From Roseovarius sp. 217 (GTDB lineage Bacteria; Pseudomonadota; Alphaproteobacteria; Rhodobacterales; Rhodobacteraceae), in contig NZ_CH902584.1 in assembly GCF_000152845.1 (NCBI RefSeq), positions 3,017,562-3,081,561 of the forward strand: 64,000 nucleotides of DNA, in the 5' to 3' direction. Of this stretch, positions 46,723 to 54,621 are shown piece after piece (the first letter of the stretch is position 1; each line of letters begins with the position of its first letter). Position numbers and translations under genes: made by a program. The notes under the pieces were generated by a model. It saw nothing but the letters and a program-made list of their open reading frames with translations, was not told the origin of the DNA and searched no databases.

Positions 46723-46808
46723 GCCCAAGTGGCGGAACGGTAGACGCAGCGGATTCAAAATCCGCCGCCTTTACGGGTGTGTGGGTTCGAATCCCACCTT
46801 GGGCACCA
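46723..46808 (+). tRNA. tRNA-Leu (anticodon CAA)
   Basis: The acceptor arms GCCCAAG (46723-46729) and CTTGGGC (46798-46804) pair fully. The anticodon stem GCGGA/TCCGC encloses the loop TTCAAAA with anticodon CAA (reads UUG). The long variable arm is typical of a leucine tRNA, and the T arm contains GGTTCGAATCC. The CCA end (46806-46808) is encoded. The 3' end is the attachment site of the integrative element that follows. Confidence 0.95.
46793..46808 (+). repeat. attL of the island (tRNA-Leu 3' end)
   Basis: This 16-bp copy of CCCACCTTGGGCACCA forms the T-arm/acceptor end of tRNA-Leu. It is the left recombination site of the island and keeps the tRNA intact. Confidence 0.9.
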
Positions 46809-46845
46809 GAATTTCCGCGATAACACACTGATTTTATTGCGTTAT

Positions 46846-48282
46846 ATGATCGCCTATTGCGCTCCTGTATCCACAACCGTATCCACAAAGAAGAATTGGG
46901 CTGTGTGGAAAATCAGCGTGAAGCACGTCAAAGTAGACAAGCGGAATGGTCACTACGTCTATCGCAGGCGCGTTCCCGAGTCGTTGAAAGCGTCGATTGG
47001 CAAGACAGAGTTCGTCTCGACCCTTGGGCGGACGGAGCAAGAGGCCCTTGTTGCCTACGGTCAATACCACCAGCGCATTGAGCACATACTGGCACTCGCA
47101 AAGAACGGCGTGGCGGGGCTGACCCCCAGCGAACAGGCTGAGCGACTCAGAGCAATGCTAGAGCTTTGGGGCGCTGACCCCACTGGACCCGGACGGGACG
47201 ACAACGAACAGACGTGGCGGGGGGAAGCGGCGGCAAAGCTGGTGGATAGATACCAAGACCCGCACACAGGGCGCTATGAGGGGGTGCCAGAGAAAGAGGC
47301 TGCGATAGCCTCAGCCCTCCTAGGGGGCGTGTCCAAAGAGGCCCCTGAGCCAACCATAAGGGACGCTTTCAAGTTCTATCTGGCGGAGAACGCCAAGGCG
47401 CTTCCCGGACAGCGCAAGAAGCAAGAACAGAGGCTGGCCCGTGCTGAGCTGCACCTGATCGCGGCGGTCGGTGAGGATAAACCCGTATCTAAGCTGACCC
47501 GAGAGGATGCCCGCAAGTGGCGCGATATGCGCGTAGCGGCGGGGAAGGCACCAGCAACAATACAGCGTGAGAAGAACGACCTTTGCGCCGTGATAGCCGT
47601 GGCCCGGAGCGAATTGGATGCAGGGGGCATAAATCCGTTCTCAGGTCTCAAACTGCCGAAAGCAAAGGTGAGCCGCCAAGAAGAGCGCGTGTCGCTACCG
47701 CCCGAAGTCGTTGAAGGGGTTTACGACGCCCTGAGTGATCAGCGCCTAGACCTTTTGCAAATCTGGACCCTACTGGACTTCACCGGGGCGCGGCCCAGCG
47801 AGATACGCCAATTGCGGGTCGGTGAGATCGTTCTTGGCCATGCCGTTCCCCATGTGGTCTTACATGAGCGTGAAGATCGAACCCTGAAAACCCCATGGTC
47901 TACCCGATTGGTGCCCCTTGTGGGCGCAGGCTTAGAAGCTGCTAAGGAGGCCGTGCGGGGGGTGAATGATCCAAAGGCCCCTGCGTTCCCCCGTTTCTAT
48001 GGGGAGGATGGATTGGACCGCCTTTCAAAGGCCTTAACGAGCCGCGTAAGGGCGCTGACCAAGGACAACCGCCACGTCCCCTACAGCCTGCGCCACAACA
48101 TGAAGGACCGGATGCGGGCGGCGGAGATTTTCCCGGACACCCAGCGGGCTATCCAAGGCCATGCCTTTGGGGGCGGTGAAGATGCGGCCTATGGTGGCCC
48201 CGTGTCGTTGGAACAGAAGCGGGATGCACTGGTGAAGGCGCTGGGTGGGTATAGGGAAAGCCCGCATGAAGGACGGAAGTAG
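46846..48282 (+). CDS. Tyrosine integrase of the tRNA-Leu island
   Basis: This integrase of about 478 residues belongs to the phage-type tyrosine recombinase family. The catalytic arginine box is FTGARPSEIRQL (near residue 315), the second box is PYSLRHNMKD (near 414), and GHAFGGGEDAAYG contains the probable nucleophilic tyrosine (near 448). The N-terminal region carries the SAM-like core-binding domain and an arm-binding segment (NGHYVYRRRVPE). The start is uncertain: ATG 46846 is used, but GTG 46903 or 46918 may be better because the family usually starts nearer the KHVKVDKRNG block. It adjoins attL. Confidence 0.9.
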   Translation: MIAYCAPVSTTVSTKKNWAVWKISVKHVKVDKRNGHYVYRRRVPESLKASIGKTEFVSTLGRTEQEALVAYGQYHQRIEHILALAKNGVAGLTPSEQAERLRAMLELWGADPTGPGRDDNEQTWRGEAAAKLVDRYQDPHTGRYEGVPEKEAAIASALLGGVSKEAPEPTIRDAFKFYLAENAKALPGQRKKQEQRLARAELHLIAAVGEDKPVSKLTREDARKWRDMRVAAGKAPATIQREKNDLCAVIAVARSELDAGGINPFSGLKLPKAKVSRQEERVSLPPEVVEGVYDALSDQRLDLLQIWTLLDFTGARPSEIRQLRVGEIVLGHAVPHVVLHEREDRTLKTPWSTRLVPLVGAGLEAAKEAVRGVNDPKAPAFPRFYGEDGLDRLSKALTSRVRALTKDNRHVPYSLRHNMKDRMRAAEIFPDTQRAIQGHAFGGGEDAAYGGPVSLEQKRDALVKALGGYRESPHEGRK

Positions 48283-49271: not shown

Positions 49272-50246
49272 TTAATGATTGTCCATCCACTCGCTGATCA
49301 AGCGCTTGACCTGTTCATGCCGCTCCCGTGCAATGGTTGCCCTTTCTGACGCCCACACCATAGGATACATTGAGCCTTCAGCTACTTGTGAGGCCACAAG
49401 GTTAGCTTGCGCATCGGCCCACTCAATCCACCTGTTTTGCAGTTCTGTGAGCGCTTTAAGGTCAATGCCATGAAGCTTCGTTGCCTCATCCATCGCTGCG
49501 GCTAACTGGGCTTCCTCGTCGTGCAATTCGCCGCCCATGCTCAAATTCATACCCATCTGCGTTCTAGGAACAGCGCCGTGCAGAGCCTCAACGACGACCC
49601 AATCAGTTGCCGTGATGAATGATTTGGCTGCCGCCGCAAGCGTTGGCACTTCAATTGGGTCAAGGAACGGCGAAGAAGGAAGTTCGTGGGTTAGGACGTG
49701 GCGCACCTCGTAGAGCCGGGCCAACGATGACATGATCTGATCATAGCTTTCGATAATCGGCGTGAACGGCCAATTGGCTTCTTCCTCCACCCATCGGGGA
49801 TGGATGACTTTTAGTTTCGCAGGGAAATCAATAAGCAACGTGTCCAAAGTACTGATGATAGAATCTACGTGGTTTAGGGAAACAGCATGCGCCACAAAAT
49901 CGCCTACTGTTAGTTCGCGTTGGTTAATGTGTGCGGTGAAGGCAAGATCAATTTTCGCGCCCTTGGTGAGCTTTTCTGCGCGTTCGAAGTAGATTTCCTT
50001 TCCATCAATTAACTCTGCGATCACACCGCGAAGAAAAACCTCCAATATCGTGACCAAACGAATTGGAATAAATTCAACAAACTTCGGAGAGCTATCAGTC
50101 AGAGCGCTGGCGTCTGTCATAAGCGTTTCGATTTCGTAGGACAGTTCAACACCAAGTCGCCGATGATCCCCTTGGCGCTTGTTCCAATCGATAATTTGTT
50201 GATACTTGGCGTTCCGCATAGCCTTACACTTGCCCAGAAAACTCAT
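49272..50246 (-). CDS. HEPN-like protein with C-terminal LprI-type domain
   Basis: This 324-residue protein has an N-terminal helical region with VEFIPIRLVTILEVFLRGVI and an RxxxxH motif, Arg182-His187 in LYEVRHVLTHELP. This is the catalytic pattern of HEPN RNase domains found in abortive-infection and toxin-antitoxin systems. The C-terminal part (about 265-324) resembles the DUF1311/lysozyme-inhibitor LprI family (LQNRWIEWADAQANLVAS and EGSMYPMVWASERATI) but lacks its cysteines. ATG 50246 gives MSFLGKCKAMRNA; the ORF is open upstream to 50357. No antitoxin is adjacent. Island location and the HEPN motif suggest a defence role, which is inference. Confidence 0.6.
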   Translation of the reverse strand: MSFLGKCKAMRNAKYQQIIDWNKRQGDHRRLGVELSYEIETLMTDASALTDSSPKFVEFIPIRLVTILEVFLRGVIAELIDGKEIYFERAEKLTKGAKIDLAFTAHINQRELTVGDFVAHAVSLNHVDSIISTLDTLLIDFPAKLKVIHPRWVEEEANWPFTPIIESYDQIMSSLARLYEVRHVLTHELPSSPFLDPIEVPTLAAAAKSFITATDWVVVEALHGAVPRTQMGMNLSMGGELHDEEAQLAAAMDEATKLHGIDLKALTELQNRWIEWADAQANLVASQVAEGSMYPMVWASERATIARERHEQVKRLISEWMDNH

Positions 50247-50555
50247 ACCTGCAAGCTTTGCTGGCGCGGCGAATGTCCACTTCGACGGGCAGAACCGCAG
50301 CGTTGCAAGAGCCAAGTGAATAGCAGCTGTGGGCCGACTGTGTTTCTGCGAATCCACCAGCGGCCATTTTCCGGGTCACATTTCCGAAGCCCCATATAGC
50401 CTCAACCGAGCGCCGGAATTCTCCCCCATACCCCCACATGCGCGGTCCAGAGACGGGGCAGGGGGCCAAGGCCCAGCGCCACGGGGTCATTGATCGCGGA
50501 TGATGATGCACGGGGCCACCTTCAAGGCTGGGCGGGGGGGCGGCATCCTGTTTTG

Positions 50556-50680: not shown

Positions 50681-51316
50681 ATGACCCAGACCATCCTATA
50701 TGCCCGCGTCTCGACCGCAGACCAGAACCTTGATCACCAGCTATCCCAAGCCACGGCGGCTGGATTTGTCATTGATGATGTGGTCTCGGATCATGGCGTC
50801 TCCGGTGTCTCTGTCCCCTTGGCAGATCGGCCCAATGGGCGCAGGCTGTTCGACAAGCTGCGGCGCGGGGATACCCTTGTGGTGCGCTGGGTGGATCGGC
50901 TGGGGCGCAACTATCAGGACGTGACAGACACGATCCGCCACTTCATGCGGCAAGGGGTCGTGGTCAAGACGGTGATCAACGGTCTGACCTTTGACGGGGC
51001 CACCAGAGACCCCATGCAGGAGGCCGTAAGGGATGCCCTGATTGCCTTCATGGCGGCAACCGCACAGGCTCAGGCAGAGGCTACCAAGGAGGCCCAGAAG
51101 GCGGGCATAGCGGCTGCGAAGGGCAACCGGGAACGCTACCGGGGCAAGAAGCCCACTTATGATCGTGAGGGGCTTGATCGGGTGCGGGATATGCTGGCCA
51201 TCGGCTCTGGCACCTCTGAGATCGCCAAGGCGGTTGGGGTGTCCCGGCAAACCGTGCTGCGGATCAAGGGCGACCCGGCTGCGGCTGAAGCTGCGTTGGC
51301 CCGCTGGGGGCTGTGA
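50681..51316 (+). CDS. Serine recombinase (resolvase/invertase family)
   Basis: This 211-residue small serine recombinase has the catalytic serine Ser11 in LYARVSTADQNLD and the family motif RLGRNYQDV (about residues 72-80). A C-terminal helix-turn-helix is visible around GSGTSEIAKAVGVSRQTVLR. Related proteins resolve or invert DNA at res or gix-type sites. Repeated CCGTAAGG sites lie directly upstream (50556-50661). Its stop overlaps the GTG start of the BRO-type antirepressor gene (GTGA). It may serve island maintenance or cassette rearrangement. Confidence 0.92.
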   Translation: MTQTILYARVSTADQNLDHQLSQATAAGFVIDDVVSDHGVSGVSVPLADRPNGRRLFDKLRRGDTLVVRWVDRLGRNYQDVTDTIRHFMRQGVVVKTVINGLTFDGATRDPMQEAVRDALIAFMAATAQAQAEATKEAQKAGIAAAKGNRERYRGKKPTYDREGLDRVRDMLAIGSGTSEIAKAVGVSRQTVLRIKGDPAAAEAALARWGL

Positions 51317-51635
51317 AGGGGGTCAAAGTAGATCGCAACGATCTTGAGATGAACGTGGTTACACTCAAACAGATTGAGGCTTTCTTAGTGACAGGGACGG
51401 GAGAGAAGTTCATCGTCAACCGTGTGAGTGCTTCTGACGCACTCGCATCCCTCTACGACTTCAAAGGCCACTCCATCCGGTTGATCGAGATCGACAACGC
51501 CCCGTGGTTCGTGGCGGCTGACGTGATCCGGCTTCTCTACGGTGATACCAACGGAAACTCTCGGGCGTATAGTGTGGTCAATGACGATGAGAAGTCCAAA
51601 GGTTCCAGTCCGAGGCAGGCCTGCACCAAAACTGG

Positions 51636-52199
51636 ATGCGCGACTACGACCCGACGTTGGGGCGGTACATCCAGGCGGACCCGCTGGGGCTGGTCGATGG
51701 GGCGAGTGTGTATGGGTATGTTCGACAGAACCCGGGAAGGTATGTCGATCCGACCGGCCTTGAAACACAAGTCATCATTTGGGAACCGGTCGGATGGGAA
51801 TCATCATCCTTTGGACACGCGTCAATCTCGTCCGGTGGTACTAGCTTTTCATATGGTCCAGGCGGCATGTCGACAGAAGCTCCTACGACCTATTGTGACC
51901 GAAATGACTTTCGTGATGGCTTTGGTATACCAATACCTTTGGATCGCCTTCAAGAACAGCGAGTGGCGGCGTGCCTGCTGGGAAACCCAGGAGACTACGG
52001 AGCATTGGCGAACAACTGCACAAGCCCCATCGAACGCTGCCTTTGTATTGTTGGGTACTGTGTGGAAAACTCAGTTACGCCACTAGGCTTGGGTGAAAAA
52101 ATCAGGAATCATCCATATGTGAAGGGTGGCGGTACGATTTGGCATGCGCCGTCACATCGAGACCGTTTTGTCGGGAGTCATTCACCATGGGCAAAATGA
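51636..52199 (+). CDS. RHS core tip with C-terminal cysteine-enzyme-like toxin
   Basis: This frame encodes the end of an RHS core (MRDYDPTLGRYIQADPLGLV and GYVRQNPGRYVDPTGL) followed by a variable tip of about 145 residues. In the tip, His61 in SSFGHASISSGG precedes Cys128 in ALANNCTSPIER. The order His then Cys, with an SYGPGGMST segment, resembles permuted papain-like (LRAT/NlpC-related) enzymes. This suggests a peptidase, amidase or acyltransferase toxin. It lacks the RHS shell and has no obvious secretion signal. The frame is open from 51591, so translation from ATG 51636 is only possible, not shown. An EF-hand ORF overlaps its stop. Confidence 0.65.
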   Translation: MRDYDPTLGRYIQADPLGLVDGASVYGYVRQNPGRYVDPTGLETQVIIWEPVGWESSSFGHASISSGGTSFSYGPGGMSTEAPTTYCDRNDFRDGFGIPIPLDRLQEQRVAACLLGNPGDYGALANNCTSPIERCLCIVGYCVENSVTPLGLGEKIRNHPYVKGGGTIWHAPSHRDRFVGSHSPWAK

Positions 52200-52456
52200 C
52201 CAAGCTGGTTTTGTTCTTCGCTTTAGCGTTCACAATTTTGATAGGCGCCTATGCTTCGTTGAGAATAAACGCGGCGTTTAACAATGGATATGCTTGGAGC
52301 GATATGGACTGGGACGAAGATGGGAGAACCACAGTACTGGAAGCTATAGCGGGTTCAGATGTAGGCAATCGAAAAAAGATAATCGATGGCCTGAATTGCA
52401 AAGAGTACTTCGCCCTAAAGGATGCCCAACCTTTAAAGACCGTATGCGAAGATTAG
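52187..52456 (+). CDS. EF-hand single-pass membrane protein, probable immunity protein
   Basis: This 89-residue protein has one N-terminal transmembrane segment (LVLFFALAFTILIGAYASL, about residues 7-25) and a complete EF-hand loop Asp41-Trp-Asp-Glu-Asp-Gly-Arg-Thr-Thr-Val-Leu-Glu52. A cysteine-containing tail (NCKEYFALKDAQPLKTVCED) follows. It begins inside the end of the RHS tip gene (13-nt overlap), the normal position of a cognate immunity gene. A membrane-anchored, probably periplasm-facing immunity protein is suggested. The pairing with the toxin is inferred from position. Confidence 0.6.
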   Translation: MGKMTKLVLFFALAFTILIGAYASLRINAAFNNGYAWSDMDWDEDGRTTVLEAIAGSDVGNRKKIIDGLNCKEYFALKDAQPLKTVCED

Positions 52457-52732
52457 GATATCACTTGGGACGCGGCGCGCAATTTTACCTGTGATGCCTG
52501 CTCGGGCGTTGGCTATGGCTATGCCTACAACGCCGCCAACCGGATGGAGAGCATGTCTCTGTCAGGCGTAGTGCAGGCCGAATATAAGTACAACGCCCCC
52601 GGCCATCAGGTGATCCGCAACCTGACCCAGGCGGGGCAGATCATCCATTCGATCCACGATCTCGATGGCAACCGCATCGCGGAATACGACTATGATGACG
52701 TGGTGCTGACATCCTCACTGATCCGCGAATAT
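52457..52732 (+). pseudogene. RHS core (YD-repeat) fragment
   Basis: Immediately after the EF-hand stop, an open frame encodes DITWDAARNFTCDACSGVG, YAYNAANRMESMSLSGVV and IHDLDGNRIAEYDYDDVV, ending LIREY. This is an internal RHS/YD segment that normally lies before the core tip found at 51602. Its placement after the toxin/EF-hand pair shows circular permutation. It has no start or end of its own and is a fragment. Its frame continues without stop into the antirepressor 3' part. Confidence 0.75.
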
Positions 52733-53291
52733 CGACGGTGGACATCTAGCAGGCACTCTATCTCGCCGTCAGAGCGGGGGCACCGGACAGATACGTCCAA
52801 AGTGTCTAGAAGTCACTTTGAAGGACGCGGCGGCAAGCCAATGGTGATCGTCACCGAAAGCGGCCTTTACAAGCTGGTGATGCGCTCCGACAAGCCCGAG
52901 GCCAAGGCGTTCCAAGATTGGGTGACCGGCACGGTCCTCCCTTCGATCCGCAAGGACGGGGGGTACATCATGGGCGAGGGTGATGATCGGCCTGATGTCC
53001 TCAGAGGCCCTGTGCGGCCCCCTAGAGTCGCCTGATGGGTTTCGTTAAGTCACACGTCCAGCGTCCAGAGAGGCCCTGAGCGGCGCTCCTGATGTCCCTG
53101 TGCGTCTCCTATCTGTTTTGGTCGGATGATTGCGGATGATTGGGGATGATGATCGGCCCGGTGGCCCGTCCCACCCCGATTAGGTTGCACCTTCAGATAA
53201 GATCATGTGTCGCCTCCCAAGGATTTCCTGAGGGGGTGATTGGTTTTGTCTGACACCCTCAACCATCATCAACAGCACAGGAGTGACCCCA

Positions 53292-54458: not shown

Positions 54459-54605
54459 GAACATGAAGGGGCTGCGCCAGTGGTGTGGCCCCTATTCCCA
54501 CGGGCATGAGCTGATGATCGGTCCCGTATACACATTTCACTACACATTGCCGTCCAAAGCCTGTAATATTCGATTGAAAACAAAGGGGTAGGATGCAGGG
54601 CGAAA

Positions 54606-54621
54606 CCCACCTTGGGCACCA
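54606..54621 (+). repeat. attR of the island
   Basis: CCCACCTTGGGCACCA is repeated here exactly as at the tRNA-Leu 3' end. Bases beyond it are unrelated to the tRNA. It marks the right end of the island, 55 bp before the stop codon of the next chromosomal gene. Confidence 0.9.

Follow-up and report, generated by a model that had tools for sequence, protein, structure and literature searches.

A gene for a BRO-N (antirepressor-like) protein in Roseovarius sp. 217 is split by an insert of 1,193 bp, most of which is RHS sequence; its last 65 bp are the terminus of an IS66-family insertion sequence, and the octamer GTCCAAAG abuts it on both sides. With a probability of roughly three in four, we consider this insert to be the non-autonomous product of an IS66-family transposase, which would have acted in trans upon one authentic IS end and upon a stretch of RHS sequence serving as surrogate for the other.

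The split BRO-N gene and its genomic setting

The insert lies in a stretch of 64,000 nucleotides, hereafter the window, which is part of contig C4 of the genome (4.77 Mb in 6 contigs, 99.98% complete). Around it extends an island of 7.8 kb, marked by a tRNA-Leu (caa) gene that constitutes its attachment site (46723-46808, found with ARAGORN), by the gene for its tyrosine recombinase or integrase (46777-48282, with Pfam DUF6538 above the cut-off and Phage_integrase below it) and by a 21-bp direct repeat of 95% identity, the copies of which lie at 46788-46808 and, as right attachment repeat, at 54601-54621. Directly upstream of the split gene there is a serine recombinase gene (50681-51316, Pfam Resolvase E 5e-27), which like the preceding features lies on the + strand. 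The island also contains, at 49272-50357 on the - strand, an ORF of 361 aa, the C-terminal part of which matches Pfam LprI (lysozyme inhibitor). The same contig carries a sister island at about 1328569-1339217 (locus L057), with identities of 81% in the tRNA and integrase part, 89% in the serine recombinase part and 77% at the right end; its BRO-N-like stretch has only 65 bp (91%) in common with the window, and it was rejected as an empty site because the 3' part of the BRO-N gene finds no match there. A Nextera adaptor artefact, considered for an ORF near 54540 that reads MCSEMCIRDR, was rejected as well, given that the mosaic-end sequence is absent at up to three mismatches.

The Bro-N domain is present in two halves on the + strand. 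The 5' part of the gene, including the left target duplication, spans 51313-51601 and covers positions 2-42 of the Pfam profile, with an E value of 4e-4 and a score (21.3 bits) that remains below the curated cut-off of 25.6 when this part is taken alone; the 3' part spans 52803-53035 and covers positions 62-96 (E 6e-12). The preliminary description of this DNA had placed an insert at 51602-52794 between two copies of GTCCAAAG, and we confirm both its length and the repeats that abut it exactly, at 51594-51601 on the left and at 52795-52802 on the right. It had further proposed that the antirepressor rejoins in frame once the insert and one repeat are removed, which agrees with our analysis: the codon phase is equal on both sides (51601 and 52802), and the distance from DDEK to TESG, counted part by part, amounts to 19 residues. 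Among relatives of the gene, 16 of the 26 ORF rows (14 of them distinct) have both a DDEK-like and an ESG-like motif, spaced by 15-23 residues, plus or minus one for the anchor, without any insert. As it stands, the frame enters the insert out of phase, forming ORF 51313-52086, and the gene is therefore broken.

Ten viral-contig loci have relatives of the 3' part, as have 10 of 198 genomes of the family, with the own genome counted. The uninterrupted gene that the preliminary description suggested looking for is thus found in the form of relatives lacking the insert, but not as a close allele with a single GTCCAAAG, which did not turn up in 84 genomes of the genus or in the 198 of the family, both sets including the own genome; neither did a search of the viral contigs return the exact insert junction.

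By itself, the repeat of GTCCAAAG is weak evidence because the octamer is common in the window, where it occurs seven times (47331, 49842, 51594, 51809 on the - strand, 52795, 54552 and 58511) versus 1.9 times expected, a number reached in none of 100 shuffles. Exact 8-bp repeats abut 5 of 62,791 intervals of the same length in the window, the BRO-N insert counted. What makes the duplication strong evidence is its placement at an IS66 terminus.

The IS66 terminus at the right end

Positions 52730-52794 hold, on the - strand, the end of an IS66-family element from its orfA side; the interior of the IS is missing. The 64 bp from 52731 to 52794 are 92% identical to IS66 copies on plasmids of Pseudosulfitobacter (P. 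pseudonitzschiae), and in a plasmid collection 45 records match the segment 52725-52802, 40 of them from Pseudosulfitobacter and 39 with identities of 90-95%; in the four records that were examined, annotated IS66 genes adjoin or overlap the match. The last 65 bp of the insert have another origin than RHS, because matches switch at 52730-52731: those of two genomes (G518 and G531) extend up to 52731 and those of two others (G584 and G573) cover 52730-52794. The junction between RHS and IS66 is thereby fixed at 52730-52731, with an overlap of TAT only. The outermost bases, 52784-52794, form the authentic terminal repeat GTATCTGTCCG, which reads inward on the - strand. In loci L108, L109 and L111 the tnpC-side end of the IS66 element reads GTAAGCGTCCGGTG and the orfA-side end GTATCTGTCCGGTG, and the orfA-side end stops at the base equivalent to 52794 in the window. 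Hence the insert that had been described as an RHS cassette is RHS for most of its length, but not for 52730-52794; nor does the movement call for an unrecognised mechanism, as had been suggested, since the right end belongs to a family whose members make 8-bp duplications.

These duplications are perfect at four distinct IS66 sites, with boundaries at the base equivalent to that in the window: GATCAAAA at L108 and L111 (the same octamer), GTATAATC at L110, which is a shortened element of 1,463 bp, CATGCACC at L126 and TTTCGACC at L137. The element of L109 shows no target duplication. A scan of 34 IS66-type loci found a duplication pair in three, most loci being too short for both ends. Among 33 loci with a 19-base pattern, two have a duplication; of the six that combine a recognised end with 2.4 kb or more of inner sequence, two do. 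Two Paracoccus elements of the IS66 family are likewise given with 8-bp duplications (PMC3281130). We are highly confident that the duplication of GTCCAAAG arose from an IS66-type event, in support of the earlier proposal that the insertion was exact, resembled transposition and duplicated 8 bp of its target.

In the IS66 ends of loci L112-L144 a palindrome (GATGTCCAC...GTGGACATC) lies inward of the terminus. In the window, as in three further copies (L124, L131 and L132), the inner flank leaves IS66 sequence at or near the loop of this palindrome, which is also the exact point at which six contigs start or stop, five of Thalassovita autumnalis and one from a Rhodobacteraceae MAG. In these three copies with foreign flanks no IS66 protein was found; no duplication was found for L124 and L131, and in L132 no end was recognised.

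RHS sequence in the insert and at its left end

The remainder of the insert, entirely on the + strand, starts with the end of an RHS core (FQSEAGLHQNWMRDYDPTLGRY...YVDPTG, 51602-51758), identified by DNA matches to RHS loci and by the model TIGR03696 (E 8e-16) for the RHS-associated core that precedes the variable tip. These left 157 bp are followed by an RHS C-terminal tip, a putative toxin domain, in open frame (51759-52199, within the ORF 51636-52199), by a small ORF representing a putative immunity gene (52187-52456, with an upstream TTG start also possible at 52139) and by an orphan piece of RHS core repeats (GYGYAYNAANRM...SLIREY, 52457-52731), for which translated homology stops near 52732 and DNA homology at about 52731. 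Neither the tip nor the small ORF has a match in Pfam, and a pattern for relatives of the tip matched 39 stretches in genome contigs, none of which was confirmed.

An RHS unit in genome G362 has a tip that is 31-32% identical to that of the insert, directly followed by a relative of the small ORF (28%) and then by a core piece, so that the order of core, tip, immunity gene and partial core is the same as in the window; no IS66 terminus or IS66 protein was detected in the 7.9 kb around it. Tandem RHS core ends are present also in G134 and G163, where no IS66 terminus was detected either. Since this order occurs in G362 without IS66, the excised circle that had been invoked to account for a circular permutation of the RHS gene is not needed.

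The RHS frame of the insert has an ATG at 51636 and no RHS shell lies upstream within the insert. Lacking the RHS delivery part, the passenger cassette is probably inert and would represent silent cargo, serving at most, as a possibility, as an immunity store.

Where does this RHS sequence begin? Of 15 DNA matches to RHS loci, 13 start at 51596-51601 and the other two at 51619 and 51626. In the 13 RHS starts aligned at the first base of the insert, the sequence is GTTCCA in 11 and GTTTCA in two, and the insert itself has GTTCCA; IS66 ends start with GTAAGC or GTATCC/T. The first bases of the insert are therefore RHS sequence and not a decayed IS66 end. Yet this native RHS sequence, GTTCCAGTCCG at 51602-51612, is a look-alike of such an end. 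It contains the motif GT....GTCCG that is common to all 17 distinct IS66 ends collected; chosen after the ends had been looked at, this motif has two matches inside the insert, exactly at its two tips, and seven in the entire window when both strands are read, the two at the tips counted. GTCCG is missing at this position from all 13 RHS homologues, so that RHS genes do not in general carry the look-alike.

The surrogate and the authentic end of the insert are equal at 9 of the first 14 positions, and four of the first 12 differ. A matrix built from the 17 ends favours uniform ends, since it omits 4 of 33 loci (L112, L123, L131 and L132) whose ends are not GATAC or CTTAC. Scored with this matrix, and with nine RHS-bearing loci as background, the left tip is equalled or surpassed at a length of 11 bp by 75 of 120,382 positions, at 14 bp by 548 of 120,328 and at 20 bp by 828 of 120,220; the four tnpC-side ends alone give 134, 576 and 218 positions over 11, 14 and 20 bp, and these three lengths and two sets of ends are all that were tried. 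The rank of the left tip becomes weaker over longer stretches, so the resemblance lies mainly in the outer 11 bp. We regard it as real and, judged from sequence, of moderate quality; these 11 bp and their exact placement give good support for the use of the RHS-derived left end as a transposition end.

At three of the 13 RHS starts (L048:2819, L049:3730 and L050:7031, from G168 and G055), altered bases are seen just before GGTTCCAG, where the usual core reads LRFPGQW; the changes resemble short, partly palindromic insertions or replacements at about the same spot. This recurrent breakpoint was considered as a set of copies of the unit in the window and rejected, for all three lie in RHS cores; the octamer before the RHS start does not recur in L048, and in L049 it does so only some 600 bp upstream.

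The composition of the left end bears upon the alternative that survives best, an improbable one, in which a complete IS66 element entered the BRO-N gene and an RHS segment later replaced nearly all of it. Such a sequence of two steps accounts for the IS66 end and for the 8-bp duplication, and the GTCCG shared by IS66 and the left end could have provided microhomology for the exchange. However, the replacement must then by chance have begun precisely at the first base of the IS on the left and have stopped 65 bp short of its right end: the first six bases being those of RHS, its breakpoint would need to hit the boundary of the IS exactly. Moreover, the tnpC-side terminus of the supposed IS66 element has left no trace.

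Proposed mobilisation by an IS66 transposase and its meaning

The reading that we prefer, namely transposition in trans with a surrogate end, would involve the following course of events. An RHS array located elsewhere, with the order core, tip, immunity gene and partial core, would have become joined at the TAT overlap to the outermost 65 bp or so of an IS66 element that had lost its interior. A transposase of the IS66 family, supplied in trans, would then have paired the authentic end with the surrogate GTTCCAGTCCG, which mimics the form GTA...GTCCGG, and the 1,193 bp between both ends would have been cut out or copied and inserted into the BRO-N gene of the tRNA-Leu island, with duplication of GTCCAAAG.

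The enzyme does not reside in the insert, as had been stated before: tblastn of the three proteins (TnpA, TnpB and TnpC) of the L109 element at E 0.01 returned no match in the whole window. The genome of Roseovarius sp. 217 has one copy of the IS66 terminus (62 bp), no second copy of the insert and no match to TnpB_IS66; of 198 Rhodobacteraceae genomes sampled, 61 have such a match. Consequently the transposase and the donor probably are in another host or have since been lost. Movement in trans, which had already been considered, is the likely course. The genome does yield 13 weak hits to PF03050, all of at most 30 bits and eight of them over the family cut-off, which span at most positions 4-143 of 284 and lie, in 12 cases, in ORFs of 203-257 aa; they were rejected as IS66 because TnpB is absent, and they look IS6-like. 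The RHS unit, which the preliminary description had suggested seeking at other loci, does not recur in this genome. No RHS core was found in 67 IS66-type loci (L078-L144, many of only about 3 kb), and none lies close to the IS66 ends of G584 and G573, where orfA lies inward as usual. The insert is a single instance.

Other origins fare worse than the replacement discussed above. Illegitimate capture of a linear RHS fragment by end-joining at a staggered break, which gives short duplications without any transposase and would fit the TAT overlap at the internal junction, is very unlikely, for it does not predict a right boundary at the exact outer base of IS66 together with a duplication of the IS66 type. 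An assembly chimera, which could be suspected from the uniqueness of the insert in the genome, seems slightly less probable still, considering that it would not be expected to place matching 8-bp repeats at the end of an IS66 sequence and that the assembly is so nearly complete in so few contigs. Least probable is the integration of an excised RHS circle by another system, since the position of tip and immunity gene before a core piece, which would suit a circle, is found equally in the G362 unit without IS66, the two core pieces of the insert do not meet, and the insert ends in IS66 instead of core sequence.

How does transposition in trans with a surrogate end compare with known systems? IS66 elements that carry passenger genes have been described as tIS66 (PMC12888890). 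The insert resembles IS66 and tIS66 elements in the terminal repeat of the form GTA...GTCCGG, in the 8-bp duplication and in its terminus of Pseudosulfitobacter IS66 type, but it has no tnpA, tnpB or tnpC and its authentic terminal repeat is limited to the right end, the left one being RHS. A known parallel is ISEcp1, which belongs to the IS1380 family and whose transposase normally stays within the unit that it moves. An ISEcp1 unit with 12-bp imperfect repeats, five mismatches and 5-bp duplications has been reported under the term one-ended transposition (PMC11123474). One authentic IS end, an imperfect surrogate end and a clean target duplication are shared with such units; the differences consist in the length of the duplication (8 versus 5 bp), in the family of the IS and in the retention of only about 65 bp of it without transposase. 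Mobile insertion cassettes (MICs) have two true IS ends. They are non-autonomous and dependent on an IS for their mobility, whereas in transposable modules (TMos) a single IS copy mobilises neighbouring DNA (PMC3281130); the TMos reported there are of the IS1380 family with one IS copy and so differ from the insert. With orphan tip and immunity units in RHS arrays the insert shares the core end, the variable tip, the small downstream ORF and the partial core, but it stands outside any RHS gene, at a transposition site within the BRO-N gene. Surrogate-end transposition is thus already known from ISEcp1 units, and the combination of IS66 with RHS would appear to be a new variant: a search of the open-licence literature, with subscription papers mostly outside it, found no joint mention of the IS66 family and one-ended transposition, and no comparable case of RHS sequence moved by IS66 was evident among the matches listed from the same literature, judged by titles and the beginnings of abstracts.

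RHS tips normally change through recombination within the conserved core. A tip and immunity pair leaving its array by transposition would constitute a second route beside such recombination. That IS66 transposases in general use surrogate ends to carry these units from arrays to unrelated loci is a doubtful extension of the present case; if it were true, orphan toxin and immunity modules would spread independently of homologous recombination at RHS cores. The insert in the BRO-N gene suggests, in any case, that one real end may suffice for IS66 elements to move adjacent DNA, as it does for ISEcp1.
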